Shown here one piece after another: positions 581-64,000 of a stretch of DNA of 64,000 nucleotides; position 1 is the stretch's first letter, and the number at the start of each line of letters is the position of its first letter. Source of the stretch: Malus domestica (lineage: Eukaryota > Streptophyta > Magnoliopsida > Rosales > Rosaceae); assembly GCF_042453785.1 (NCBI RefSeq), contig NC_091676.1, forward strand, positions 379,501 through 443,500. Direction: 5' to 3'. Position numbers and translations under genes: made by a program. The notes beneath the pieces were generated by a model. That model worked only from the letters and a program-made list of their open reading frames with translations, was not told the origin of the DNA and searched no databases.

Positions 581-1164
581 GAGTTGCTTGCCATCCTGTG
601 TGCAAATGATGTGGATTGGTTTTTCTGGCGTCGAATGACCATTGTGTGCAGCTGTCGTGGCTTTATTTTGCGGTGGATTGTACACCAGCACAAGTTGAAA
701 TCATGCTTTGTTTACTTGTGCTGTAACGATAATGTTTTAACTTAGGCGGGTGTGACTCAGATTTAAATTGTGTTTGGTTTTATAATATTTGGTAGCGAAT
801 TCAGGTTTTATGTTTCCCAATGTTGTTTGCATCAATGGTTTGATTCACTGAGACAGCTCGAACCACCAGGGAGAATGACAGAATGTCACCGCAAATTCGG
901 TAATTATACGCCGAGTTTTGGCCCCAAATCGTGAAACTGAGTGAAATATAAAGTGTCCATTGGAGGAAAGGGAAAAGGAAAACAAAAGCCAAGCAAAGCA
1001 GCTCACCGATATAAAAAGACGGCCACCTCGTCAACACACAATAAGTGGGAAAGTGAAAACGAAAACTGAGAAACGAGAAACAACATAAATACACTTTTCC
1101 TAAAGAATCAAATCTACAACTCACGAAAAGAAATAGTCGTGGGCGGGCGGAGCGTGGCTTTTAA
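581..1164. other. Convergent intergenic region between eIF4A-III and MAP3K epsilon
   Basis: This stretch should contain the 3' untranslated regions of both converging genes. I see no extra gene, RNA or repeat. The ORF on the minus strand at 801-1124 has no recognisable protein features and lies in the expected UTR. Confidence 0.6.
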
Positions 1165-4100
1165 CTACAAGACGGTGTTAATATGTAGTGCTTTTAGCAG
1201 CGAAGTAGCCATTTGTTTTACCAACACTTGGCCACCCGATCGTTGCCCATCTCTGCGTTCTTCTATTAGATTTTGAAGCTTCTGAGGCAGATCATTCTCC
1301 ACAATCAATTGCTTTGGCCGCGGGTGGTGCTCATAAACAGCCTGCCTCAGACATATTAACAGTATTAACAACAGGAAGAAGCAAATAGATAGCTTCCAGA
1401 ATAGTAAATGATTCCCCCACCTTTATCAGTTTAAGAAGATTTAGACGGGCAATTGCATCCTGATGGTCCAGTCTCGTGATGAGCAGCGGTGTCAAACCAT
1501 TTACAGCTAATGTTGTATTAATTCGAGATGATTTCCTGCAAAAAGAAAGAAAAGCAATTGTTATGTCCACAAAGGAAAAAGGGGAGCTTTGTAAAAACAT
1601 GCTACTTAAAATCATTCAGAAACAAAAGCTTCCAGTCAGACACATGACACATGACATGACAGGGTCGATATTTCAACTCCCAATTATAATCAATCGATAA
1701 AAGTTTATATGCAGAAGGTTAGAAAGACAATAATTAATTTCTAGTAAATAGACTATATACGCAATCACATACGTTATAATTTTCAAAAATGGCTCCAATA
1801 TGTGCACGAAATACTGTTCTGGACAGCACTGGAAGAATTTCACCAATTTCTGAACTGCATCCTTTTTCAATAATGCTTGTTCCACCTTCCGGTTGTCATT
1901 GTCATGAGCTAAGCACACGGCAATCGAATCCAATGCAGTCACAGACCAAAGTTCATCCTCGAGAAGGCTTAAGTAAACATCCAACCCACCATGAGCCCTT
2001 AGTTGCTCCCTCGAATTTCGTGATGCATGAGCCATGTCACACAGTAAAGGCAACGCACATTGTTTCAAAGGAGAATTAGACTCAATAAAGTGCATTAAGT
2101 GTGGAATTATTCCATTCTCAGCTGCTTGTTCCTGTCTTCTCTTGTTAATCTTGCACAGATTGAACAGGGCATTGAGTACCTAGAAAAAACGACGAGAACG
2201 ACGCAGTTAGAACTCGGTCATTTTATGAACATTCTATGTAGAGTTAATATCCATACAGACTAAAATACTCTACATTTAAGGACAGAAAGGGGTCACATAT
2301 ATTTAATTTCAAACAACAAACACAATAAAATGCACGGCTTACTAGCCAACAATCCATTGTTAACATTAGAAATAGGACAGATTGCCCACCTCATGATGTA
2401 TTTGAGATACAAGAGCTCCTTCTTTGAGTTCAAGGTTTGGAATCAAATATTTAATTGCTTCTGCCCGCTGAAGATTCTCTAAGCAGTTTGGATCAGTTGA
2501 CAAATGGTTTACACACTTCAGTATCTGTACAATGACAAAGCACCAACATCATCAAGGTTGCAGTAACATAAATCAATAACATAAATCAACGGAACTTTCT
2601 GAAAATACCTTCAAAAGAATAGGGGGCTCCACCCTATTGAACATCTTGAAAAGACGGCTGAGCAAACTTTGGCTACACATGTATGACTTTACAGTAGTAT
2701 CTGCTTGTGCAAACTCAAGCAGAAGATCAGCCACCTTTTCTAGGTATTCCCTCGCAACATCTGCATTCAATGTTGAAACCATGTGGGAAAGTAAACCTGA
2801 TGATGTTGCACTGCCTGGTCTAGCATTTAAAACTCCAGAACCAGAAAGTACACCTGATGCTGTCTGAGATGCTATGCCAGAGGTGGAAGCAGCTCCTTTG
2901 ATAGATGCTACTGTTCCCATCTCTTTATTCATCGTTTTATGAGAAACTCTAGCAGTGGAATCAACATTCCCATTTTCTCTACCACGTTGAGAGACGTCTG
3001 CAAAATAATGAAGGAACCAATTATACATAGAAGTAGATAAAATGGGCCCACGTAATTGCTAAACAACATTATGGAACAAGAAAGCAATTAAAATCGATAC
3101 TTTGGTATATATCTACTCAATAGGAGTTGGAGAAATTTTTTTGTTTGATTCATTAGATCCTAACACTAATTTATATCGTTTACGTATTATAAAATTTAAA
3201 GATTCCAAATGACACACTTGTTTACAGGTTATAAACTAAATGATGGATTAGATAAAGACTGTTACCAGCAAATTCAGCCATCAGGAAATCTAATTCTCCA
3301 TTTGTCTTCTTTTCATTAGAAGCATGTAACAGGGGCAATATACTTTCATGTCTCTCCAAACCTGGCAGGTGGCGTACAAACTCGAGCTGACCAGAAAAGT
3401 GTCTGGAAGGAGGCTCTTTATCTAACAAGCTAAGAAGGGGACGAACTTGCTCCTGTTGAGTAGTTACCGTTGTTGAAAACCCATTTGATGTACCATCCAT
3501 CATTTTTGGAGGTCTATCTGTGGATGCCCTACTAGAAGAATTAGCAGGTCGCTGCTGCCTGAGGTCTAGATCCCGAGAGGTAATGGAAGGTTCCTTAGTT
3601 GTAATATTTACTACTTTGTCTACTGATGTTGAGTCTGTCAATTTAGAAGGAACTATAGCTTCCACTACCACATTGCTAGATTGAGCTCTATCAGTATCTA
3701 GATGAAGATATCTTGGATCTGATTGATTGGCATCTGATCTTTGAGAGTTTGAAGTTGAAGCACGTGCAGGTTCTGCTGTTCCAGTTGACAAATGAAAATC
3801 AATCAATCCATGTCTAACCTTGGAGAGATCATGTTGATCAGTTGTAGAAAGCAGCACGTCACTCTGAGCAAAAATCGGATGACCAGAATCTAATGAACCA
3901 GACCGTGGGCGCTGAGCTGAACCTTCTAGTGGAAATCCACCCCCGACAGATATGGAAGCTAGGCGGGTTGCCTCATTCAAGCTATAAAGGGTGTTAATAA
4001 GCCTCAGCAGTATTCCATTCTTCGCAGCTATGCGACAAAAATCATTTCTAGGAGTTGATTGTTGAAGCTTAAAGACCTGCCACATCCCGTCAATTGCTAG

Positions 4101-12119: not shown

Positions 12120-20132
<8,013 letters not shown>

Positions 20133-23044: not shown

Positions 23045-23552
23045 TTTTTTAATTTTTTTAAAAACTTTTTAATAATTTGAATTGTGGCTGACATCTTGCG
23101 TTACATAGGCAAGGCGTTGGGCCAAGCGATTATTGGCTAACTTTTCCATCGGGCTCACCTTAAGTCTAATTGCCCGAGTGGGCTAGAGTGTTTTGGGAGG
23201 GGCGAGAGTGGATTGGGTTGCCTATCCCCAAGGTAATAAGCAACGATGAAGTTGCTCTAATGTGGAATTTGTATTTTACTTTATGCTTTATGCTTTACTT
23301 TTTTTAATAATTTTTTTTGTAACTTTTTAATAACTTAAATTGTGGTTGACGTCAGCCTTGCATCACATAGGTAGGGTGTTGGGTCATGTGATTATTATCT
23401 GACTTCTTCATCTGGCTCGCATTGAGCTTGCTTGAGTGGGCTGTAGTATTTTGGGAGGGGCTAGACTGGATTGGGTTGTCTATCCCCAAGGTAATAAGTA
23501 ACGATGAAGTTGCTTTAATGTGAAATTTGTATTTTACTTTATGCTTTAAGTT
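23045..23552. repeat. Tandem duplication of a ~240-bp noncoding unit
   Basis: Two adjacent, diverged copies lie at about 23045-23290 and 23291-23552. Both carry, in order, an A/T-rich lead, attgtggctgac or attgtggttgac, a cacataggt-type block, gggaggggc, tggattgggttg, tatccccaaggtaataag and ttgtattttactttatgc. Single-base differences are scattered through both copies, so the duplication is not recent. No coding frame is conserved. Confidence 0.85.
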
Positions 23553-24633: not shown

Positions 24634-27430
24634 ATGGCCGACTTGCCCAAGGTTAAACTCTTCTCTCGTCTCCCCTTGCTTTCTGTTATTTTCTTTTGTA
24701 ATTTTGTCATTTTCTTCTTCTATCGGGGATGGACGGTACTTTGTGCAAAACTTAATCGGATTTTTTTGTTAGTAAATTCATCCTTTGTGTGTGTGTGTAG
24801 TTTAATCAGATAGTAATTGACCAAAACCCAATTGATTGGTCTGTTTCTGTTGCATTTTTCTGTACCTGTTCTTCATATTTATTGAGTTTCCTCTTTTTCC
24901 AAAAGCTAAATGGTAATTGGATGCTGGAACCTGGAAGCGCCTAAGCTTATCTATCAGTTTATATATTTTAACTTGGTTTTTAGCCAAAAGAGTTATGAGA
25001 TTGTCATACCTCCTCAATATGGTTTCATAAGGATTCGACGTGATCATGGAGTGCCGGCTGTCGACTACCTGACGCACTCCCCCTCCTCCTTTATCCGGGC
25101 TTGGGACCGGCCATGTAAGACATAGGCGGAGTTATACCTCCTCAATATGGTTATTGGCAGTAAATCATTTTAGTCATTTCGTGAAAAATTCTTATTAAGT
25201 GGAAGTATTGGTTTACAAAAATACTCTTAAAAAGTGGTCATGTGGTAGTTCACAAGACAATTTAATGAGGATACTGACATATTTTTCACGAAATTCCAAA
25301 ATGACTTATGATGGACAACCTCATGAACCACTTCTATCGATTTTCATTGTTAGCGACCGAAGGCCAGTCTTGGAGATCAATTTGGTTAAAATGCCTAATA
25401 GCCCTTTAACTTTTGTTTTAGTTGTTTTTAGACTGAGTACAATTGAATTGCTTGCCTGATTAATTGGTAAGTGTTTTTCTGTGAATATTCATTTGTTAAG
25501 TGTGCTTTTGCGTTTGAATGATTGACATTCATGTTGCAAGAAATAAGTTGTGCTAGATTAGTTGGTTTTCCATAAAACAGAGAAACTAATAATAGATTCG
25601 GTAGTTTAAAAAAAGAAAAAAAGATTCGGTTGTCCGGCTGCGAATGTGTTGATGAAGAGCTGGGACATGTATATACCTGCTTTTAACACCTTTGATGGAT
25701 CTTACTGGTTGTGCAAGTTTGTGTTGTTTTCTTGGTTGCTTACTTGTGGGTTACATATAGGAGCATTTCATAGCATCCATCAAGGAGGACTATGACGTCA
25801 CATGTTGGGGTTGTGGATTACACCTTCTTCTTCCGTCAAATGCTCCAATTTTCAAGTGTGGTTGGTGTGGAGCTTTAACAAATCAAAATGCGGGGAAACG
25901 TGAATGCAAGTACTTTTGGTTGAGACGCTTGCGGGATCGCTGCTTTGTCGGTATCCTGTTCATGTTTATGCTATTTGTGATATGTATGTACTCATTGCTC
26001 GTATAATTCTTTTTGGAATCTCTCTCCATTTTGCTTGCACATTTGTTGACATTCACCCCTCCCAAATAATTAGGCATTATGTATCCTTAGTTTCACTGTT
26101 CTATATTATCTTCTGTATGAAAATTTAATTGATCTATTGGAAATGGTCAAAAGATTTCCATGAAAGAAGATAAGAAAATTTACTTTAATTGCAAAATGTA
26201 AAACTGCAATGACGAGTTAATAGCTTCTTTTTGGGGATTGAGGAGCGTGTTACCAAATTTGCATTGTCTAGTATGTTCTACAGGTCGAGAAGATAGATTT
26301 TGCGTATGCAAGAGCTCATAAATCCCAAATTCAATGTATTTTTCCGTGTAGTATTTAAATTTAAAACAGGGCCAAACTACTTTTATGAGGTTTTTCTTTT
26401 ATTTTTCATGTTGACATGTTTCCTTAAATTGCAGGTGGTGGAGTGTGGGCGATGTTCCCTGTTCTTTTCGGTATCAGCTATTTCCATGGAATTTTTCACT
26501 CCATCATTGCCTTCATGTTATCTGCAGCCACTGTTTATACATTCAGTTCTGCTTCATTTGCGTGTGCTGGAACTCCTCCATGCAGAGTGTGGGGAAGCTA
26601 TCCAGCTGTGGGGAAAAGTGATCTCGATAATTATACCTTCTGTCACCAATGCTCAAAGCCAAAGTCGCCTAGCACTCATCATTGCCGGTCCTGTGGAAAG
26701 TGTATATTGGACATGGATCATCACTGCCCATTTGTGAGTGTTGTCATCTTCTTCCCAATTCGTAAATATGTTGGTCGTTTGTTTGACGGAATATCTTTTC
26801 TGTCTATTAAACGCATTATCTTTTAATCACTTGACTTCTAGGTATCAGTAAGACTTGGTAGATTTGGATTTGAGATTATAACACGCATACTAATAGCAAT
26901 GTAACTGCATGATTTTGATGCAGATTGGGAATTGTGTTGGTGCAGCTAACCACCGACACTTCATTGCCTTACTCATATCAGTTGTCACTAGCACGTTCTA
27001 TATTTCTATCATGGCTATATATGTGTGTTATCATAGCTGGCCATCCATAACCTACGAAGCCGAGGACCACTTGCATGCCTTTGACAGTTATTCAGCTATA
27101 ACAGCTATCCGTGAGATTATATATGGTTTGCTAAGATCTGCTGTCCTTTTATCCCCTAGAGGGCTTCTTCTGTTATATCTGTTTATTTCAAGTGTTTCGT
27201 TGGAGATAGGGTTGAGCATACTTCTGTGGCAGCAACTGAGTTTTATTTACGAGGGAAAAACCTATTTGAATCATTTAAGTTCACAGGGAACTGATGAAGT
27301 TGGAGAGAAGGATTGCCAAAACCTCGTGCGTTTCTTTGCATTCCCGTATCCCTTGTCAAGATATCTTCCCCTCTGCTCTCGCTCAATTTTGCCAAGTTTG
27401 CAAAAGAAGACGCATAGACACAAGAAGTAA
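24634..27430 (+). CDS. DHHC-type protein S-acyltransferase (palmitoyltransferase)
   Basis: Four coding exons, 24634-24651, 25761-25983, 26435-26733 and 26924-27430, sum to 1047 nt (348 aa). The enzyme attaches palmitate to cysteines of membrane proteins. An N-terminal zinc-ribbon-like CWGCG...FKCGWCG is followed by membrane segments and then the cysteine-rich domain [30 protein letters not shown], with catalytic DHHC. Two more hydrophobic segments and a basic tail (KKTHRHKK) follow. The N-terminal CWGCG plus DHHC combination matches the Arabidopsis At3g18620-type PATs from memory; the exact number is uncertain. Exon 1 encodes only MADLPK, its donor (GTTAAA) is weak, and its choice is the least certain part of the model. 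Intron 1 holds a short insertion with 19-bp direct repeats. Confidence 0.9.
25006..25152 (+). mobile_element. Short retroposon-like insertion with 19-bp direct repeats
   Basis: A 109-bp GC-richer segment (25025-25133) is bracketed by identical 19-bp copies of atacctcctcaatatggtt at 25006-25024 and 25134-25152. The insert contains gtcgactacctgacgcac, atccgggcttgggaccgg and cataggcggag, phrases I recall from other plant genomes. Target duplications this long are typical of LINE-mobilised insertions. There is no poly(A) tail or tRNA head, so the class is open. Confidence 0.65.
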
Positions 27431-34283: not shown

Positions 34284-36087
34284 TCAGTAGTCCACTGGCT
34301 CATCAACCTCGGCGATAGGAGTCTCAAGGATGGCTTGCTCGGCTTCCTGCACCTCCTTCTCGGTCTTCCTTCCCTTCTTGGACTTGTAGTACACACTCAT
34401 GAATGTTCCCACAGCACCATACTTCCTCCTGCAGTTCTCGTAATGCCCTGCATCAAACATCCTCCAGAAGTTCTTCTCGTTCAGCTCGGACACAGCATAC
34501 TGAGGCTGGAAACCATGATTCTCAATCAGCCAATTCTCCATCCGTCGAACTGCTTCTGCACCATCAAAAACCTCACCCCTCAGGACGGGGCCCGGTGCAT
34601 AGTAGACACCAACATCTGTGTACATCTGAGAGTAATGCGTGTCTCCCTGCCTGCGGTGTTGCTCAAAGCCTGGTTCGGTGTATATCATTGTCTTGATGGG
34701 ATTCTTGTACATTCTGTGAGGGCAGAGCCAGATGGGGTACACCTATAGAATCAACAAAACAGGATTAACAAAATGGAGTAGGGAACATGATTAAAATCAA
34801 AATGGATTTTCGAGTTTAAGTAACACAAGACATGTTTACCTCCATCTCATGGTGAACCCATTCTAAAGCATCCCCAACCTTGTAAAGAGGAACAAGCATG
34901 TCTTGAATGACGTGATTGTCGTGGTAGTAGTTTCTAATGGCTTCACCTTGAGTAGCCTTGAGCAGAGAAATCTTGGGTGGCATCATCCAGCCCAACAAAA
35001 ATCTGAACCACCACTGATCAGCAAATGGAAGGATAAGCTTTCCCTCCCAATAAATACTCCGAGTGTGCCTGTGGTAGTAGTCCCTTGTCGGGATGTATTC
35101 TACAAACTCCCCTTTCTTTAGTGCTTTCTCGGCATGCTGATAGAACCAGGGTTTAAACCACCACCCAACTTCGTTAATCACATTCCCCTTCTTCTTTGCT
35201 TCTTCTTTTGAAGCATATCTACCCGTCATGCACACAGCTTCCGTTGGAGTATAAATCATGGTTTCAACAAAGTCTGGAACCTTTTCGGGGTTGTCCTGAT
35301 CTCCATCTCTCGGAGCAAAAGAATCACTGTATGCCTGTGCAATCTCTTTCAGATTTCCCACCACAGGTTTGTATGTCAGCCTCATGTATTCCTTGATGGG
35401 TATCAGCTTGATCTCAGCAGAGACAAGAAGCCCCAATGTTCCCTGAGACCATGGAATAGCATAGAAAAGATCAGAGTACTCATTATCCCTGGTGGCTCTG
35501 ACAACTCGGCCATCTGCAAGAACAATCTCATAGGCCACAACTGTATCAGAGAAAAGTCCATAGATGTGAGAGCTTCCTTCAATTCCATAGCCATTAATGA
35601 GACCACCAACGGTAAGATCATCAAACTCAGCAACCACGGCAAGGGCGAGATTCAATGGAACAGTTACCCTGGTTATCTGCCCCATGTTGACTAAGGGCTC
35701 AACTTTTGCAATCATTCTCTCTTGATCAATTTCAAGGACATTTCGGAATGCAGACAAATCAACCTCAAAATGACGAGCCCGCTTGTAGTCAACATTCCTC
35801 ATTCCAACAGCTATCCATGGTTTTCGTGCTGTGCAAACAAGCCCATCCTTTGATGGGTTCCTGTCTTTGAGCCGTTTTACGACCTTCTGAACATTTTCAT
35901 CATGTTCCTTTTGACGCCTCTTGTAGGACTTCATCTCAGATCTTATATCCCCGAGGTATGTGAGAAAGTACATAGTGAAGGAGATGGGGAGCACAACAAA
36001 GATAACAACAATCCATCGGAATTGAACAAGAAAGTCCACCACAGCCGTCTTCCTCCTTGGACGCAGTGGGGTTTGAAGATCCGACAT
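34284..36087 (-). CDS. DWF1: Delta(24)-sterol reductase DWF1/DIMINUTO
   Basis: Two coding exons, 36087-34840 and 34742-34284, with one GT-AG intron. They encode a protein close to the family's usual length of about 561 aa, from MSDLQTPLRPRRK to DEPVDY. DWF1 converts 24-methylenecholesterol to campesterol, which supplies brassinosteroid synthesis, in the ER or another endomembrane (family knowledge). A membrane anchor lies at residues 23-45 (WIVVIFVVLPISFTMYFLTY). The FAD-linked oxidase domain includes KVEPLVNMGQITRV, EFDDLTVGGLINGYGIEGSS and ATRDNEYSDLFYAIPWSQGT. The WWFKPWFYQHAEKALKKGEF region corresponds to the part where calmodulin binding is described. A leader exon and long 5' UTR intron are predicted to the right. 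The reading frame is intact throughout. Opposite-strand ORFs over this gene are codon shadows. Confidence 0.97.
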
Positions 36088-39826: not shown

Positions 39827-42800
39827 TCAAGGATTGAAAATATTTGAGCCACCAATGTTGAGTGCAATTAGCACTGACATGCCGGCAAGTAATGAAAGCC
39901 AAAGTAAGGTGGATTCCATGGATACTCCTGCATTTCACAAGTTTATTTTTAATCTTTTTGGAGGATGAGGAGATGACACCAGTCAAAAAATCAACAGTAA
40001 ATCGCTAACTTACTACTTACATAATGATGTAAGAGGTAAAATAGAGATTAAATACCTTGAGAACCTTCCGAATTATTATTGGAATTTGAAGGCACAGATT
40101 CAGCATCAAGTCCACGCCGCATTTTTGAAAATTTTGACCCTGTAATTGAGATATCATCCACAAGTTTGGCATTTCCTGTTTCGGATGCCACTATCCCTTG
40201 AAATTCTTCACTCACAATCAAAGCTGCTAGAACGTCCATGAAGGATTCTTTGTCTGCTTCATTTGCAGGCTCTAGTTTATCCTTTTCAGAATCAGACAAC
40301 TCATCATCTGAATCTGAAGCTTCGGTATCCATAGAAGCCACCTGAGTTTTGTCATCCTCTTCATCCTCAACATATGCTTTATATGTCAGTCGAAGTAGTA
40401 TTTCACCAGCAGACTTCTTTTTAAAGAGGCCCCAACCTCCTTGCAGTACCACAATCCTGTCCGTCGGTACAGTGTCTTGGAGAGATCCCAGATCAACCTA
40501 GAAATGAACGAAGTATTAATGGATAACTATTTACTTCCGAAAATCTGAAAGTAGTATTAATGGGCCAATTTGCCTCTGAAGGCAGTGAATTCAACCATTA
40601 GCTGCTATATCATGCGGCACATGCGCAATTAGGCAGGAATAAACTTTTGGGATATTTTTGTCAATTCTATCTTCATCTCCTTTTATCCCTTATCTAAGTT
40701 TAAATTTTTATGGAGAGGGGAAAAAGGAGCATTTTTGCGCTCCTTAGAACTTTAGATGAGAAGAATCAAATAATGCAGCCATATCTCATTCTTGATATAA
40801 CCCTCTACCTCAAAAACACAAACATTACATGCATGCATCCCAATCATGTATGCTACGACCATGCCAATCCTGAAAACAAGTTCAGTATTTGAAAGGATTA
40901 GATCTTTTACCTCTCCTGTACCAATAGTTAAGTCTGCAAATCCAAGAGAATCGTTGACTTGGATGTATAATTTTTGTTTTCTAGGGTTGGCCACAAGTAT
41001 ATCAAAATCCTGCCAGCACATACAAACACATGATTCCAAATTTACATATACAAATTTTACAATATAGTAGATGAAGCAACACTAGAAGACGGTTCACCTG
41101 ATTCCAGATCGGCTCACCAGGGGGTCCAATAACAGTAGTTTGACTGTTTTTTTTACTGCGTATAATTTGATCTCCCAGGCTTAGTGTAACATAGGGATCC
41201 GTTTTGCCTGAAAAATTAGATCAACAGGTTATTGAGTCTCTAAACGAAAGTGGACAAGTGAATACTTATGATATTCTTATCATAAGCCAACGGCAGCTTA
41301 AAAAAAATGAAATCAAAACAAATGAAATTATTTCACATTAGAAGACATTCATTACCATAGAAAACATAGGAAAGCTTCCGAGCATCTACGAGGGTCACTG
41401 ATAATTCTCCAACAAAATCCTTGTTTCCTTCTTGTATGTCCCCTGACTTGAAATCATTTCCGACTGGGCCAACTGCTTTTCCTTTCTGGAAATCCAAGAC
41501 AATCTTTTTTGGGCGTACAAATAATCTAGGTAAATCCTCAGTGAGAAGTTTTGTCAAAAACCTACAAAATGCATTTAGGGATCCAAGTCAAAAGGTGAAA
41601 GAAACAAACAAGCATACAAATCCAGAGTGAATACTAGATTATCGACTTGTTGTCTACCATTAACTTTCGCATAGAAAAAATTTAACGATTGAGAATGATG
41701 AGATTCACTTACATTGAGAGAACAGGAATTGCTGAATTTGCCCAATCCATGCAGAAATAGACGAGAGAAGAAGATAATAATCAGTATCTTCGACATAAAA
41801 CGATTTAGCCTAAAAAAATGCAATTAACATTATATAAAACAATCTATCTTATCTACCAAACATAGTGCTATAGTACCTTTAGTAAATAGAAACATGGTTA
41901 TGAATATATGACATACCCATCAAATTGAACAGGCGGAAGGGCGACAATTCAAATTTGATCTTGGGAAGTGAAACAAAAGCCCATTGAACGGCTCCCACCC
42001 AAGGCGACGTAGGTATTAGCCGTAACTTGACCCAAAGTTCCCCATCAATATCAAAATCTCGAACACCAACTGGCACGTAAATGGGAATAATGCTAAATTT
42101 TAGTGAGAGCATTAACAGCATACGAGCACCACCAGTATAACGTAGACCTATTTGGTACCTAAATGAAATAAAGGGATATAGAATCAGTGTAATGGAAAAT
42201 TGAGTTAGCACAGAAAGTATTTTGACAAAAAAAAAAAAAACATGCAAATCAGTTTCATAAAGATCTACCCTGATGAAAAAATGGTAAGGATGTCAGATCA
42301 ATTATCTTAACGTTTGCTTTGATCGAACTCATCCACTAAATTCATTGTTTTATATCATTTCGTAGCATCCAATATCAAATTACATCTTAGCGGCCCAACA
42401 AATATTAAGCTTTGTCAACTTACTAAACAGGATATTCAGCAGCACATTGCATTAAGTTCATCATTCGATTTCCACATAAACAATCAGTCTATCATGAACA
42501 TTGAAGTAGAGAAAATAAGCAACCCAATCAAACAAAACACAAGCATAATTGAATTGAAAATTTTAACTCACTGCAGATCATTAACGCGGCGGGACGTCCT
42601 CCGCTCGACATTCCTAACAGACAACGGCTCGTCCCCCAGCGAAAACTGCTTGATTTCAACTCTCTCAACATAGTCAGGCTTCTTCAAATCATCAATTACC
42701 GGCTGCAGCAACCCAATGAGCCAATTCTCAAGCCCGGCTCGATAAACCTTCCACAGCTTCCCCAACACCATGTTCACCCACTCCACCGACTCCTTCCTCT

Positions 42801-43410
42801 GCAAATCCTTCTCCAGAAACAGCGAAAAGCTCGTGGGCACTTGCGGCCATGCCTCTCTGCGGCCATTGTCACTACCCAGCTTGCTCTTCTTCCTTGAATT
42901 CCACAATTTATCAAACGCGACGCCTACAAAGAAGAAGAACACAAACAACCCCCCAATGTTTCGGTTTATTGGAGGCGATGGAATGGGATGTATCACTCCC
43001 AGCTGAGTTCTGAGCTTATCCACAAAAGGGTCCTCCTGAAAGGTGGTGAAATTGCTCCCCATTTGAACCGGCGACTCTTCGGAAAACTCATCGGCTTCCA
43101 ATTCACCGGAGAAACGATTTATCACCAAGTTTTTCGCACCCCGTCTCGCTGAATTCGTAAGCTCTATGTTCATGGAGGATCCTGGAGCATCGGGGGGCGA
43201 AATCGCACAGGAATTACAACCCCATTTTCTTCTGACGCTTTTTCGAGGAAAATTGGCGATAAGCAGCTGCTTTCTTCTTCTTTTAGATGAAGGGAGGGAG
43301 AGGAAGTTGTGGGTTTTTGTTGGGCGGGCGAAATTTCCACATGGGCAGTGAGGAGGAAGAGGCCGCGGCTGCGAGAAATCGAAGCTCGCAGAAGTTGATT
43401 GCAGAATCAT
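39827..43410 (-). CDS. NTMC2T5: SMP-C2 domain lipid-binding protein NTMC2T5 (chloroplast-type synaptotagmin)
   Basis: It starts at ATG 43410 and ends with TGA at 39827-39829. The N-terminus (MILQSTSASFDFSQPRP) is Ser/Arg rich and transit-peptide-like. A hydrophobic segment lies at residues 151-170, followed by an SMP lipid-transfer domain (ADSTSFSLFLEKD-like start, then VNDLQYQIGLRYTGG). A C2 domain follows (GELSVTLVDARKLSYVF, GKTDPYVTLSLGDQIIRSKK, WNQDFDILVANP), then an acidic tail and a last exon (39827-39927) encoding a C-terminal membrane helix (LLWLSLLAGMSVLIALN). One exon is only 19 nt (41713-41731). Members are proposed to tether membranes and move lipids at plastids (family knowledge). 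It lies head to head with PRP40C, 2.2 kb apart. Confidence 0.9.
41713..41731 (-). other. 19-nt microexon of NTMC2T5
   Basis: The flanks are an AG acceptor (attcag) and a GTAAGT donor. It joins LFNLM-G (phase 1) to -FLTKLL and supplies AIPVLS. Omitting it would shift the frame. Confidence 0.75.
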
Positions 43411-47795: not shown

Positions 47796-50700
47796 CTCTG
47801 TCCCTCTGTCCTTCCCCTTCGTCGATGATAACTGAATCAATGCTACATTGCATATGGGTTGTTTATAGATGATAGGAACAATTCTCTCTGTCCTTCCCCT
47901 TTGTCGATGATAACTGAATCAATGCTACATTGCGTATGGGTTGTTTATAGATGATAGGAACAATTCCATGATGCAGGTCCGGAGAATAGAGCTGCTGTCA
48001 ATGAACAATTGGTTGCCTGGACTGCCCACAAGACAGAGACAGGAGTTGTATACTATTATAATGCTTTGACCGGTGAATCAACTTATGATAAGCCTCCTGG
48101 ATTTAAGGAGGAGGTACGTGGAAGTTTTATTTATTTTTAGATTCATATGATATGAACACTTCATGAAATTTCAGTTTGCAAGATGCCTAATCCTAAAAAT
48201 AACTACCAAATGCTGCTGCAAAATTCTTAACTGTATTTAAGATGCAGATTGAAATATTTTTGAGGTTTGTTTTATTGCTGCTGCATTTCATTCTGAGGCC
48301 TTGAAGTTATCATGTTCATTCTATTAAATGTTATCTTATTTTAACCAGAACACCTTGTTGTGTCCACATTCCAATATAAGTCGTGAGAAAGTGGACCATA
48401 TTCTTCTTCATATCCCTGTAGGTATGGAGCTTTGGTCCCTTATCTTCTCATGTGTAATTTATGACTTATATGTAGGTTGTTTTTTTGGTATTTTGGCATG
48501 CTAGTATATTTAGTGTGGTGTGGTATGAGGTTCCTTGTGCATTGGTGCGGAAAACAGCTAAGTTTCGGATAATACGGATACATAAGATTAAGTATGAAGC
48601 TTTTGTTCAGAAAAGAATATGTACAACTTTTGTTTTTGAACTTGGCTTTGTTCATTTTTAGCCTACTGCATATGAATATTATATCTTGCATTGTTTCCTA
48701 TTGTATACCCTGTGGTAGTTTAGCTTTCTTCCCTGTTTTCCCATAAAAATCGTACAAAAATCACATCATTAGTTTTTATTGGATTAGAGATGACTTTTTA
48801 ATTGCTCTGACTGCTATGATTATGAGGATTCCATTGTACAATTATTATTTTTCATCTTAATATTTTTCTTATAGAAATGTATAAGGTAAGAATAGAGAGC
48901 TATTAAAAAGATAGGATCTAAAGTTTCAGTGCCCCTAAATCTGGTTTGAAGCAATTGCTTATTTTCTTTTTCTAGGCATCATGCATGACTTTACTTGACC
49001 ATTGCTGTTGGGGACGTATCTGATTAATTTTTACTGCTTGTGCAGCCTGATAAGGTTTCTATGCAGCCAACTCCAGTTTCGACGTAAGTTCTAGTTTATC
49101 CTGTTGGGTCGCCCCTTTTTTCATTTATCTCTTGTATTTTGGATGTTAGAGTTGTTTCATAATGTTTTTGCAATGTTAGAATGTTCTTTTATCCTTGTTT
49201 TGGTTCTCTTCTGTTTAGGGTGAATTTGGCTGGAACTGATTGGGTATTGGTCACAACCAGTGATGGGAAAAAGTTTTACCATAATAGCAAAACCAAGGTA
49301 TACCATATAACTTGTTTATTGAAATGTCTGGGGTCCTCAGAAACACTGTTGTATGAATAGGTGTTAGTACTAGTACTATTGTTACCAACCTTATTGTATC
49401 TTTTTTTTTTTTTTCCGATCAGGTAAGTAGCTGGCAGATCCCAAATGAAGTGATTGAATTGAAAAAGCAGCAGGATAGTGACGTGCCAAAAGAACATACA
49501 CTATCAGTGCCAAATAATAATTTAATGATTGAAAAAGGATCTGCTCCAGTTAGTATGAGTGCTCCGGCCATTAACACGGGTGGTCGTGAAGCCATGCCTT
49601 TTAAACCTTCAGCTGTGCTGGGAACATCTTCTGCACTTGATCTGATTAAAAGGAAGTTGCAGGATCCTGTTACTTCTTCACCAATTCCGGCACCATCAGA
49701 ATCAAATGGTGCAAGAGGAGTTGAGAGTACACCTAAGGGCCAGCAAAGCGAGAATAGCAAAGATAAGCTAAAAGAAACTAATGGAGATGGAAACTTGTCT
49801 GATTCCTCATCAGATTCAGAGGATGCAGACAGTGGGCCAACAAAGGAGGAGTGTATTATTCAATTCAAGGTATATTTGTTGCTTCTAGTCTTCTACTATA
49901 CGAGAATCTAATATGAACATTAAATTGCAGAGATACATATTGTACTCTTATTGTGGAATTAAGTTTGAATGTTTTCTTTTTTCTTTAATATTCATGGTTT
50001 TGAGTCAACTGACTTTTGGACATGCCATGCTGGTGATCATTTTTTATGATTTCAACTTAAGACCTGTAGAATATAGAAAGTGCGGTTCGCTGCTTTGTAC
50101 TTTTTTCTCCTTGATGTAATTTCGAATGCAGCCATCTGTGAATTGGGTTAGAGGCAACTTTAGATGTGGCTGATCTACTTTAGAAAGTTGATTTTATTTC
50201 CAACTTTAAATGCAGTTGATGAGAAATGCTAATCATTTGGCAATCATATATACAGGAGATGCTTAAAGAACGGGGAGTGGCACCATTCTCGAAGTGGGAG
50301 AAGGAACTGCCAAAGATAGTGTTTGATCCACGATTTAAGGTTTGTTGAGTCCAAACGTTAGGAATTTCATTGTTTTGGAATTAAGAGGCTAACCTATAAC
50401 TGGAACTGCTTGAACAAGTTTGTTGGATTCATGCATCTGCTAATTTTTGGAAGGGTGAATTTGTTCCTGCCAATATTCTAGTGTTATCAATTGATTTAGG
50501 GTGCATGTTAACTGATACCCAAATTGCTGTTTATTTTATTATTAAATTTTGTTTTAATTTTTAATTTTTAATTTTTAATTTATGAGTGCTGTGAAAGGCT
50601 TAAACTTTTGTTAAATGATGCCTTATAATAGAATCTTCCCGTCAGTGCTGACCTCCTGGGCAGATACTGCCTTAGATGTGGAATTTTCTTGTTCTCTGCA

Positions 50701-58338: not shown

Positions 58339-59975
58339 AGGTTACGGGATAGTTTCCAAGTTTTGGTTCTCCGCGGAACTGCATTTGTGTTGAACTTTGT
58401 TTTACTTTGGCATTTTAAGCTAGTCGAATGGAGAATACGTGTTTATTTGCACTATCAGAATCTTGCTTTCAACATTTTTATTAAGTTAAGAAATATTATT
58501 AATTGTGTTATGGGAATGGGGTTATTCTTTAAATATTTAGCTGCTTAATGTTAATACTTTTAGTTTGATGCCATGCCAGTTCCCAATCATGTTTAGTTTT
58601 ATTTATTTATTTATAAAAAAGAGGACCAAGTAGTGGTTTTTTCATATCAGTTCACTCTCTCGGGGATTGGGAAGATTCAGTCTTTCGCTGGGCAAACCTA
58701 GGATATGTCGGGTAAAATACGGGTTTAAAATTTATCCCGAACTACTGGGTTATCCTGTGGTGGTTCAGTCATGTTTAGTTTTGATTTGTTTTTTAATGTT
58801 TATTATTTTCTCATGGGTGGGCTAGTTTTCTAATTATGCTTACTAAAAATTATGCTTGGCTTCTTAACCTGATGCGACTAATACAAACTATAATCTCATT
58901 CATAATAATTAACAACACGATTAAAGATAAAAATAATTTCTCTTTCTGCACATGTTTATTTATTTTTGTTCTTTAATTTTTTTTTTCCACTCATTTTTTT
59001 TCTTTTGTACATATCTGTTTATTTTAATTTTTTTATTACAAACAATATTATATACTAACTTATAGTTAAAAAATAAAAATAAATCCGAAATATAATAAAT
59101 TAAGAAAAAACTTCAACCATCAGAACAATTTAGCACCAAATAATCAATTGGCTTCACTTTCTGGTTCCTTCCCTCTCCTTTTAGGAGTAGGATTCTTTTC
59201 TTTCGTAATTTCTCTTATCTTTTCTTCCTTTTTACTTGAATGATTACGATTGAACCATGTTAATATTTTATATTAATTTTTTTTTTTATAAAAACAATAA
59301 AATAAAAAAAAAGGTGTGAGAGGAGGAGAGGAGGAGGTGATGAAAAGTAGGTGGTCTCTCGTCTCATTAAGAACCGGTTATATTTGTCTATCTGGTGGGC
59401 CCCCTGTTCACATGTATAAGTGTTTGATTGGCAGAAAAAATCCTGAAAGTGAAGGGAACCCGCATAATATATTAATATGTGACAAAGGAATATGCATTTA
59501 ACAATTAATTGAGAGCAACCTTTCTTGACTTGCAGAATAAGAATTTGTCATATGCAAAATGACAAAAATATCCCCTCTTTATCTTTTTATCTCTTTCTTG
59601 TTGGACGTGGATTTCCTTTTGTTTTATTTCGTTTCTTGTCAGAAAAAAACTCTATACCATTTATATTTTTTTACTTAAAAGTCAATCCTAGTACTATTTA
59701 TTTTACATTTTATTTTATCATAATCGTTAAAACTCAAAATTTTCAAGTATTTTTCACTAGTTTTCCTTTTATTTAAATTCTGAATATCTTTTGTGTCTCA
59801 AAATTTTTAAATAATGACACAATACCCGACACATTTTGATTTTCAATTGACATGTCATTGCTGGGACAGCAATTCCACTTAACCAATTCCACAAATCATC
59901 GGAAGTGGTCCGCAAAATTCTTCGAACAACATAAAATTTTGCAAAAGGAAGAACCAAACAAGTGATTGTTTTTAG
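58339..59975. other. AT-rich intergenic region between TAF15 and the nested element
   Basis: It begins with the TAF15 3' UTR. It contains a 5'-truncated copy of the family A MITE-like element at 59664-59769 (aaaagtcaatcctagtac, caaaattttcaagtat, cactagttttccttt). No gene is visible. Confidence 0.5.
59664..59769. repeat. Truncated family A MITE-like element
   Basis: It matches the right two thirds of 23595-23752 in the same orientation (aaaagtcaatcct, gtactatt, ttattttacattttatttt, tttcaagt). The left inverted end is missing. Confidence 0.6.
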
Positions 59976-60088
59976 ATAGTACTATTCACACACATTTATT
60001 TTTATTTTTTAATATTTCTTTCAATTTTTTTGGACTAAATAAATTGAAGAAGATGAATGCTAAAAAATTAACAAGTGTGGATGGAAAG

Positions 60089-61511
60089 TAAAAATAAGGG
60101 TAAATTACATAGTAGCCCATCAGGTTTGAGGTCTATTGCAATCTTATACAACATCTTTAAAACATTTCACTTTCATACCTCAAGTACTATTTTATTTCAA
60201 TTTCATACAACCGTTAGATTTTCCATCCATGGATCTGTTAAATGCTGACGTGGCTGCCACATATATGACACGTGGCTGCCAAATGTCTGCCACGTCGCAA
60301 ATAAAATAATTTTTTAATTTTTTTTTAAAAACCTGAAATTGGAAGAAGAAAAAAAAAGGGACCGAACCCAGAAGAAGGAGGAAGAAGAAGAAAGAGGAGG
60401 AGGAGGAGGAGGAAGAAGAAGAAGAAGAAGAAGAAGAAGAAGAAAAAAGAAAGGGGTCCGAACCCAGAAGAAGGAGGAAGAAGAAGAAAGAGGAGGAGGA
60501 GGAGGAGGAAGAAGAAGAAAAAAAAAAAAAAAAAAAGGGACCGAACCCATAAAAAGGAGGAAGAAGAAGAAGAGAAGAAGAAAGAGGAGGAGGATGAGGA
60601 AGAAGAAGAAGAAGAAGAAGAAGAAAAAAAAGAAAAAAAGAAAGGGACCGAACCCAGAAGAAGGAGGAAGAAGAAGAAGAGAAGAAGAAAGAGGAGGGAG
60701 GTGAAAGAAGAAGAAGAAAAAAAAAAAAAGGGGTCCGAACCCAGAAGAAGGAGGAAGAAGAAGAAAGAGGAGGAGGAGGAGGAAGAAGAAGAAGAAGAAA
60801 AAAAAAAAAAAAGGGACCGAACCCAGAAAAAGAAGGAGCAAGAAGCAAAAGAGAAGAAGAAAGAGGAGGAGGATGAGGAGGAAGAAGAAGAAGAAGAAGA
60901 AGAAGAAGAAGAAGAAGAAGAAGAAGAAGAAGAAGAAGAAGAAGAAAAAAAAAAAAAGAAAGGGACCGAACCCAGAAGAAGAAAAAAAAAAAATAAATAA
61001 AATAAAATAAAGGGGTCCGAACCCAGAAGAAGAAGAAAGAGAAAGAGAAGAAGAAGAAGAAAGAGAAAGTGAAGAAGAAGAAAGAGAAAAAAAAAAAAGG
61101 GACAGAACCCAGAAGAAGAAGGAGGAAGAAGAAGAAGAGAAGAAGAAAGAGGAGGAGGAGGAGGAAGAAGAAGAAGAAGGAAAAAAAAAAAAAAGGGTCC
61201 GAACCCAGAAGAAGAAGAAAGAGAAAGAGAAGAAGAAGAAAGAAAAAGAAAAAAAAAAGTGGCAGATATGTTTTTTTTTAAATTAAAAAATTATTTTATT
61301 TGACACGTGGCAGACATTTTGCAGTCACGTGTCATATATGTGGCAGCCACGTCAGCATTTAACAGATCCATGGATGGAAAATCTAACGGTTGTATGAAAT
61401 TGAAATAAAATAGTACTTGAGGTATGAAAGTGAAATGTTTTAAAGATGTTGTATAAGATTGCAATAGACCTCAAACCTGAGGGGCTACTATGTAATTTAC
61501 CCTAAAAATAA
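60089..61511. mobile_element. Non-autonomous Mutator-type (MULE) element with internal purine satellite
   Basis: The element spans 60098-61502 (1405 bp), flanked by the perfect 9-bp duplication taaaaataa at 60089-60097 and 61503-61511. Terminal inverted repeats of about 228 bp (60098-60325 and 61275-61502) begin gggtaaattacatagtagcc and differ at only a handful of positions. Nine-base duplications and long terminal repeats are diagnostic of the Mutator superfamily. There is no transposase. The interior is the repeat array listed separately. Confidence 0.88.
60340..61260 (+). repeat. Polypurine GAA/GGA satellite of ten units inside the MULE
   Basis: About 920 bp in which the plus strand is almost entirely purine. 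It is interrupted only by ten anchors of the form ggg(a/t)ccgaaccc, at 60358, 60453, 60537, 60644, 60730, 60813, 60962, 61012, 61099 and 61195. Typical spacing is 83-107 bp. Between anchors the order recurs: agaagaagga, gaagaagaaag, a GGA run, a GAA run, then an A run. Long ORFs in both directions (up to 218 codons) are products of the triplet repeat and are not genes. Confidence 0.93.
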
Positions 61512-61530
61512 ATGTATGAATAACACTATT

Positions 61531-62177: not shown

Positions 62178-64000
62178 ATGCCTCACCTCTCTGATTTACA
62201 AATCTACATTGGTCAGCAAACATTCTTCGTCAATGAGGTAATCAAATAACGAAAATTCTATAGCGCTCCGGAATATGAATGGAAACGATCCATTATTTCT
62301 CTGCCTAAAAGTTTACAGCACACTTCTTTTGCAGGAGATTTTATCAAAATATTCATCAAGGTTGAAGAAGATGATCAAGGAAGAAAGGAGAAGAACCCAG
62401 ATGAAGAATTCCGGGATCAAAATCGATGGCTTTCCGGGAGGCCCTGACGGGTTCGAGTTAGTTTCTCGATTCTGTTACAACAATGGCAGAATCACACTCA
62501 CGGTTTCAAACGTGTGCCTACTCCACTGCTCTGCAATCTTCCTTGGCATGACCGAAAAGCTTTCGCCCCGCAATTTGTTGCAGAAAACAAGTCATTTTCT
62601 TGAGGGACTTTTCGAGTGGTCGTTCAAAGACGTACTAGTCTGCCTCAACAGCTGCCGCTCGTTCTTCGACCACGCAGACTCGTCCGGTCTTTTAGACAAA
62701 CTCATTACTGCACTGCTTGCAAAGATCGCTCAGAATTCTGACGTGAGCAACCTCATTGCCACGTCGCCTTCGTCTTCGTCTTCTCCGGAAACTGCATCTG
62801 GGTTCAGACTTTCTTCCACCCCGGAATCCCTCAGGCCGAGCTCGTCCAGCAGAGCATGGTGGTTCGATGACGTGGCCGTTCTGCCACCAAATATCATTGA
62901 GAAACTCCTCCAGATTTTAGGTGCTTACGGACCCGAAAACAACAGCTTGATCCTCACCAGATTCCTCCTCCACTACCTGAAAATCTCTGCCCAGAAAAAA
63001 CCCGGGAACTCGAAATGCGAGCTCGGAGGGCTCGCCGACACGGCGGTTCACGGCGTGATCTTGGTGGGCAAAAAGGTCTTTTCCTGCAGAGCTCTGTTCT
63101 GGGTTCTGAGGATTGTGTCTGGCTTTGGAATTAGCAAAGAGTACAAAGTCGGGTTGGAGAGATTGATTGGTGGGATGATCGATGAAGCCACGCTGGATGA
63201 TTTGCTGGTGTCGGGCCACGACAGGGGAGTTTATGATGTTAATCTCGTGATTAGGATGTTTAAAGTGTTTGTTAATGGTGAGGGAGTTTCAGTGCAGAGG
63301 TTGAAGAAAGCTGGGAGGTTGGTTGATAAGTACTTGGGTGAAATATCACCTGATCAGAATCTCAAGATTTCTAAGTTTCTGGGAGTTGCAGAGAGCTTGC
63401 CTGATTCTGCCAGGGACTGCTTTGATGGGGTCTACAGAGCCATTGATATCTATCTTGAGGTAATCACTCCATTGCCATTACCTTAATTCTTTACTTTTTT
63501 TTTTTTTTCTTCAAATAAAGAGTGATTAGTGGGATTAGATTTTTGTAAATGGTCGTGTGCGAGACATCTATCATCTTTCGAAGGAAAGAGTCTGAAGGGA
63601 CCATTACACCCATAAACCTCCGTCCCTTCTCTACCAAATTTATTGATAGAAAATGAAAATAAACGAAAAATATACAAACAGAGGGACTCTACCAAGCCTC
63701 ATAAAGACAAAAACAGTATGCTTGTATTGCGCTAATGTTTCTCGACGTTCCGTGACAATTATACCACGTCACTTATTATTATTATTTATATATATATTTA
63801 TATATATTTATATTATTGGTCTGCGACGCAATGTCGGTGGCAAAAGAAATTAAAGAACATAGAAAGCTTCTTGTCTCCACGGCTAGATGGGGAAAAGAAG
63901 GGCATGTTAAAAAGATTGAAGGGGTCAGATAAAAGTAGCTCTTCTTACTATATGGGACGAGAGGGAGTGATTCAATTTACTTGAGGAAGAGGGAATATCA
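62178..64000 (+). CDS. NPH3/BTB-POZ family protein, 5' part (runs off the window)
   Basis: Exon 1 is 62178-62237 ([20 protein letters not shown]) and exon 2 is 62335-63459 (375 codons), ending at a GT donor after AIDIYLE. At least 395 aa are encoded. The first ~80 residues form a divergent BTB domain ([19 protein letters not shown]). The NPH3 domain includes [55 protein letters not shown] and [18 protein letters not shown]. Family members are adaptors of CUL3 ubiquitin ligases and act in phototropic and auxin-transport signalling at the plasma membrane (family knowledge). From 63460 to the window end is intron with an AT-rich tract near 63775-63815; no third exon is visible. The position next to PRP40C and TAF15 suits the At3g19850/At1g50280 pair. 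Confidence 0.9.

Follow-up and report, generated by a model that had tools for sequence, protein, structure and literature searches.

A non-autonomous Mutator-like element of apple carries an internal polypurine minisatellite that travels with it and may have grown inside it

Tandem arrays within transposons are already known. The closest precedent for the case described here is MtPH-A6-4, a PIF/Harbinger-like subfamily of Medicago truncatula; in the sections of that account cited here, its members hold 2 to 35 imperfect tandem repeats, which at the extreme nearly fill the region between the ends, and the repeats are missing from 5 of 23 members (PMC2213677). The same sections list 27 further repeat sites, each of which resembles an element end, if only residually, and propose abortive gap repair (PMC2213677). 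Here we analyze a 1405-bp element of apple (Malus domestica) that lies in a 64,000-nucleotide stretch of contig NC_091676.1 (positions 379,501 to 443,500, forward strand, assembly GCF_042453785.1), hereafter the window, whose own numbering is used throughout. Like MtPH-A6-4, it is a plant terminal inverted repeat (TIR) element with a variable internal array, a likeness of build and not of superfamily; unlike in MtPH-A6-4, as far as the cited sections go, the unit is ~94 bp long (median) and purine-rich. A preliminary description of the window had known of no standard Mutator-like family defined by an internal polypurine higher-order repeat; among DNA transposons at large, a tandem array filling a TIR element does have this precedent.

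Other described elements share further features with the apple element, again as far as the cited portions of each source extend. Tetris, a foldback element of Drosophila virilis, is likewise non-autonomous, with Mutator-like duplications of 8–10 bp and tandem repeats amplified inside the element (PMC4079207). Its repeats lie within the inverted arms and also form kilobase-size satellite arrays (PMC4079207), whereas the apple array is confined to the space separating the arms, and none was seen outside an element. Another Mutator-like element of plants, CitMule of Citrus, makes 9-bp duplications rich in AT and bears a pyrimidine/purine tract with GGG triplets near one end, but it is 7 kb long with a transposase, has short degenerate ends and holds a tract rather than a multi-unit array (PMC4334395). 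Muta1 and its relatives in Aedes aegypti are Mutator-like, mostly with long inverted ends, make duplications of 8–9 bp and include many non-autonomous derivatives with foreign interiors, as in the apple family; their tandem repeats, however, are 9–15 bp long, subterminal and part of the ends (PMC5225508).

The element occupies positions 60098–61502 and was assigned no strand. End-to-end comparison delimits TIRs of 223 bp at 60098–60320 (+) and 61280–61502 (–), which differ by 5 mismatches over 223 nt (97.8% identity) and lie 959 bp apart; the near-identity of the arms had been recognized before, while the length then given, ~228 bp, was slightly too great. A perfect 9-bp repeat, TAAAAATAA, directly abuts both ends as an unstranded target site duplication (60089–60097 and 61503–61511), which upholds the borders and the length of 1405 bp first proposed. 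Long TIRs and a target site duplication of this size (9–11 bp) are features of Mutator-like elements (MULEs). Toward the inner side of both inverted ends are direct repeats of 22 bp that include ACGTGGC motifs (at 60248–60295, near the inner edge of the left TIR); these are possible transposase sites.

Ten purine-rich units make up the array (60358–61258, + strand), each opening with the anchor GGG[A/T]C[C/A]GAACCC; the anchors begin at 60358, 60454, 60537, 60644, 60731, 60813, 60962, 61013, 61099 and 61195, and are spaced 51–149 bp apart. The number of units agrees with the preliminary description, but the array is not quite the whole interior: a 37-bp border holding AAAAACCTGAAATTGGAAG precedes it (60321–60357, + strand; retained in L054, a copy without the array), and a border of ~21 bp opening with GTGGCAGATATG follows it (about 61259–61279, + strand). 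Purines account for 92.8% of the 921 bases from 60338 to 61258 on the + strand, matching the purine strand of ~900 bp reported earlier. Pure purine tracts reach 91 bp, and the longest pure GAA run of this copy, 22 triplets within unit 6, lies at 60881–60946 (+). With arms spaced as they are, such tracts would allow triplex or cruciform DNA. As to the higher-order repeat named in the preliminary description, the variable letters of the anchors show a weak period-3 pattern in this copy (6/7 matches, equalled by 9 of 210 arrangements).

Three open reading frames (ORFs) from the interior gave no Pfam family match at E ≤ 1, in keeping with the earlier statement that the element lacks a transposase. 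Long ORFs on the pyrimidine strand (60192–60848 and 60314–60841) were rejected as coding, because they have no Pfam match and because a strand of C and T only cannot spell a stop codon. Host gene fragments, the mark of a Pack-MULE, were not found in the window copy, whose interior consists of the array and short borders with no Pfam match. Scans of the window returned 0 Rfam and 0 tRNA matches.

An older, dispersed miniature inverted-repeat transposable element (MITE) of ~142 bp (~150 bp in the preliminary description, which had recognized the nesting) received the insertion in its right arm. The left part of the MITE (59975–60097, +), which includes one copy of the 9-bp duplication, and its right remainder (61512–61530, +) are split by the insertion. 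In the window alone, the MITE arms show a modest excess of pairing, with a score of 52 versus a mean of 37.3 for shuffles (SD 5.4, maximum 52, n = 300). With the element and a single duplication copy excised, we then joined the flanks, so that the left part forms query positions 1–123 and the right remainder positions 124–142, with the junction at position 123. Among the matches listed (40 scored of 505 first-look candidates, six of them aligned), 39 other genomic places all span the junction, and hence the MITE is real and predates the element. At 35 of the 39, the match covers most of the query at 74–80% identity; at the other 4, it runs from query position 56–70 onward at 84–88%.

Searching the genome (651,096,769 bases in 19 contigs) with the left end gave 41 matches listed at 97–100% identity, the window copy included (40 scored of 2808 first-look candidates). 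A 42-bp tip pattern, with up to three mismatches, was found at 793 places (410 forward, 383 reverse), compared to 0 for the reversed pattern. The 40 other left-end matches fall in 35 loci, and 35/35 of these hold complete elements. Our tally comprises 58 complete copies, designated by L numbers: the window copy, these 35 loci, L089, L090, ten copies picked because both tips are listed close together (L092–L101) and ten picked by the unit anchor, of which 100 places are listed, from ~16 clusters with no listed tip seen nearby (L102–L111). For L064, a second and longer end pairing was discarded. L091, L124 and L125 stand outside the tally, the last two having been fetched afterwards; L124 is another element with seven anchors.

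Dispersed copies sharing both ends, on which the preliminary description had staked its reading, are present: all 58 tallied loci have both, although most were chosen by an end, some arms of the 57 other copies are diverged or partial, and only 66 nt of the left end remain in L110. Perfect 9-bp duplications flank 51/58 copies, whereas 1000 shuffles of the right flanks among copies produced 1.2 per trial (mean) and never more than 5. These duplications have a GC content of 3.1%, compared to 28.2% for nearby flanks. Together with the shared ends, they bear out the Mutator-type anatomy. Within array copies, divergence between the two ends has a median of 2.3% (range 0–13.4%), and many copies are therefore fairly young.

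The copies L090 and L091 (C15:4803700 and C15:4816900), 13 kb apart, are identical over 2190 columns except for 3 gap bases, and reflect either a recent duplication or an assembly repeat. We considered this pair as a test of array change between duplicates and dropped it; as neither copy holds anchors, the pair is uninformative about array change, and our counts exclude L091.

Counting units in each copy, as had been suggested, revealed a range of 2 to 13 anchors (up to two substitutions allowed) in 51/58 copies, and none or one in the other seven (L054, L076, L090, L097, L098, L099 and L100). The array-bearing share depends on how copies were chosen, since just 6/10 of those chosen by paired tips have two or more anchors. 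An exact 20-bp anchor occurs at 263 places genome-wide (control, 0); on visual inspection, the 100 places listed group into 44 clusters, with no cluster longer than 1 kb. All ten anchor-chosen loci lie within complete elements, and no free-standing array was seen at them, although assembly gaps could conceal arrays. Because of this, and because no listed cluster exceeds 1 kb, we regard the array as a minisatellite internal to the element rather than as free-standing satellite DNA; "minisatellite" or variable number tandem repeat (VNTR) fits better than the "satellite" of the preliminary description, whose suggestion that the element spread the array is supported by the same counts. The variable array is bound to the element and fills its interior, as in a TIR element with an internal VNTR.

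Two copies have unusual arrays. In L092, one unit contains a very long pure GAA run that by eye far exceeds that of the window copy, and in L089 the array is broken, at about 995–3235, by ~2.2 kb belonging to a different element, whose first bases are TGACACACCCC and whose last are GGGCTGTGACA.

Arrays mostly travel whole, because the best-matching units in other copies hold like positions. We compared 352 units from 49 copies with at least three anchors, dropping units outside 30–260 bp. The best cross-copy match of a first unit was another first unit in 30/49 cases, and that of a last unit another last unit in 30/48 (chance ∼14%); the mean difference in relative position was 0.17, versus 0.40 for random picks. 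A minority of units (30/352; chance 1.9%) found their best match within their own copy. Among them are two blocks that we read as local duplications, a three-unit block in L058 (scores 0.98–1.0), the only clear case of that size, and a two-unit block in L064 (0.89–0.93). In L067, and in no other copy, a stray duplicate of the end's inner edge lies inside the interior; a template switch during repair would produce such a remnant. Changes in unit number may be linked to repair after excision. No clear relation was seen between how many units a copy has and how far its ends have diverged (Spearman –0.19, P 0.19).

Copies with few or no anchors include forms that look intermediate. L090 and L097 have gene-like interiors that are 93.5% identical over their whole length, and by eye a single purine block adjoins the right end of each. 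L076 likewise has one anchor unit beside the right end, within a different interior. In L101, ∼812 columns of L090/L097-type interior (90% identity) are followed by four purine blocks by eye, two of which pass the anchor rule; its positions 731–1104 match the window array at 74% identity over 395 columns. This combination of an L090-type interior and a short array suggests growth in place, as the preliminary description had proposed. L054 (508 bp) retains both array borders with no unit between them, the join lying within a run of A, and is therefore best read as a copy that has lost its array.

The remaining relatives differ in what they carry. L098 (G000:C1:13728240-13729930) and L100 (G000:C2:12974620-12976270) have gene-like interiors without the anchor, 95.7% identical over ∼1.1 kb. 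On its minus strand, L100 has open stretches of 214 and 110 amino acids; three of its ORFs gave no Pfam match above cut-off, and the interior looks like a captured gene fragment. L099 (G000:C2:8150740-8152290) has its own, different G/A-rich tandem array with Tandem Repeats Finder (TRF) units of ∼130 and ∼300 bp, which suggests more than one origin of an array between these ends; its own two ends share 87% and 95% identity with that of the window copy.

In a tree of left ends, rooted at the midpoint for drawing only, a starred branch (support 97/98) groups 51 rows, namely 49 array copies together with L054 and L099. Outside it fall L076, L090, L097, L098, L100, L101 and L110. Because the copies form a series from one unit to many, and because most of the low-unit copies lie outside the array branch, the direction of change would be from a single unit toward an array. 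Presence or absence of the array requires five changes on the tree, compared to a mean of 6.7 when states are shuffled, with 12 of 500 shuffles as low as five.

Several observations weigh against a single, internally grown array spread by a trans-acting transposase. The tree falls short of a single array origin, because many of its branches are weak (36 of 52 inner branches are open, and the bootstrap had not settled) and because at least two of the five changes are forced by starred branches. Two array copies, L101 and L110, fall outside the main branch, L110 with less than half of the columns; their placement could mean parallel array growth. The different array of L099 nevertheless aligns with that of the window copy over 123 columns at 72% identity, and purine-rich likeness arises in part from composition alone. 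The samples are non-random, having been picked by likeness to the window copy, by paired tips or by the anchor. Finally, a related element with a MURA transposase, which the preliminary description had proposed to look for, was not found at the loci we covered. The MULE domain (PF10551) has 151 reported matches in the genome; at 8/8 fetched loci (∼3.3 kb each, ∼1.5 kb per side) there were no such ends, and the lone reported match that visual inspection placed close to a listed tip falls outside the element. L125, a 4891-bp relative with both ends and a perfect duplication, had no transposase in the 25 of its 34 stop-to-stop ORFs (≥50 amino acids) that were scanned against Pfam, while the nine others overlap scanned ones or are located within or beside the ends; the single match was weak and to an unrelated family (PF23184, E 0.0077). 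Movement in trans is inferred from the element ends and duplications.

The best explanation for these data, and one we hold with considerable confidence, is a non-autonomous Mutator-like element with an internally grown array that is co-transposed. The family would have been amplified fairly recently, mobilized in trans by a transposase. Its ancestor may have had a composite interior, in which gene-like sequence was followed by one purine-rich stretch adjoining the right inverted end. This stretch, with its GGGWCCGAACCC-type block, would have become a tandem array, and the remaining interior would have been lost on the lineage of the main clade, leaving most copies of that clade with the array and short borders between the ends. 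Transposition would then spread copies together with their arrays, keeping unit order for the most part, while block duplication or deletion would alter unit number in single copies, probably via post-excision gap repair or replication slippage. The window copy inserted into the right arm of the older MITE. Growth of the array inside the element is supported, but less firmly than the anatomy, the nesting and the co-travel of the array. The array itself probably encodes no function, acting as expandable filler that spaces the two ends.

A quite different origin can be imagined, in which a Mutator-like element, in the way that these elements take up pieces of genes, captured a pre-existing genomic minisatellite and subsequently spread it. 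The gene-like interiors of L098 and L100 suggest that the family may take up foreign DNA, although the Pfam search gave no parent gene; yet every one of the ten anchor-chosen loci sits inside an element, and the single-unit copies L090, L097 and L076, together with the short array of L101, point to growth in place within the same family. We therefore judge capture to be improbable. That the long inverted repeat is no transposon at all, and its flanking match a matter of chance, is hardly credible: nothing was found in its favor, and many dispersed copies share the ends and the 9-bp duplications.

Another possibility is that selection keeps the array, the purine strand acting on movement or copying of the element through triplex formation, R-loops, stalling that favors gap repair, or chromatin. 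Several features fit, including the 91-bp purine tracts and the 22-triplet GAA run, retention of the array in 51/58 sampled copies (a sample biased toward array copies), the different purine-rich array of the relative L099 and, near one end of CitMule in the cited portion of its description, a TC-rich tract containing six GGG triplets (PMC4334395). However, anchors range in number from 2 to 13, the main-branch copy L054 has none, and unit number does not clearly follow end divergence, all of which leads us to consider selection unlikely. An equally doubtful proposal, more far-reaching than the internally grown and co-transposed array we prefer, is a transposon that combines recognized ends with a self-expanding polypurine minisatellite, in which GAA/GGA tracts prone to triplex formation or stalling would promote gap repair or re-replication after excision.

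In the open-licence literature, we found no report of this family or of an apple or other Malus Mutator element with an internal array, and the papers seen in listings for the literal tip and anchor sequences were unrelated, judging by their titles. Pattern scans of viral contigs with the tip and the inner end motif gave no match. The anchor had 37 matches in these contigs, which we took as chance, since by eye none has a GAA/TTC array in the 40 bases flanking it to the left or right.

Among long ORFs to the right of the element, the nearest (62275–63486, +) encodes an NPH3 domain (E 1.3e-42), its first ATG lying 772 bp from the element. Elsewhere in the window are two tandem duplications, at 23050–23548 (258-bp unit ×1.9, 82% matches) and 47804–47966 (82-bp unit ×2, 97%), and pieces of common plant genes recognized by Pfam at 18804–19361, 26909–27427, 34819–36087 and 42571–43410, of alanyl-tRNA synthetase type, DHHC palmitoyltransferase, FAD-binding and weak SMP-domain (below cut-off) affinity.

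If polypurine arrays did actively promote repair in the way outlined above, growth of the array and growth in copy number would drive each other. More generally, the many-copy series in apple, comprising copies with a single unit, a short array, a full array and an array since lost, illustrates how a tandem repeat may arise in a mobile element and scatter through a plant genome. Because GAA/TTC tracts are reported to be unstable in other systems (PMC4334395), the family also provides natural replicates in which the relation between transposition and changes in repeat number can be studied.
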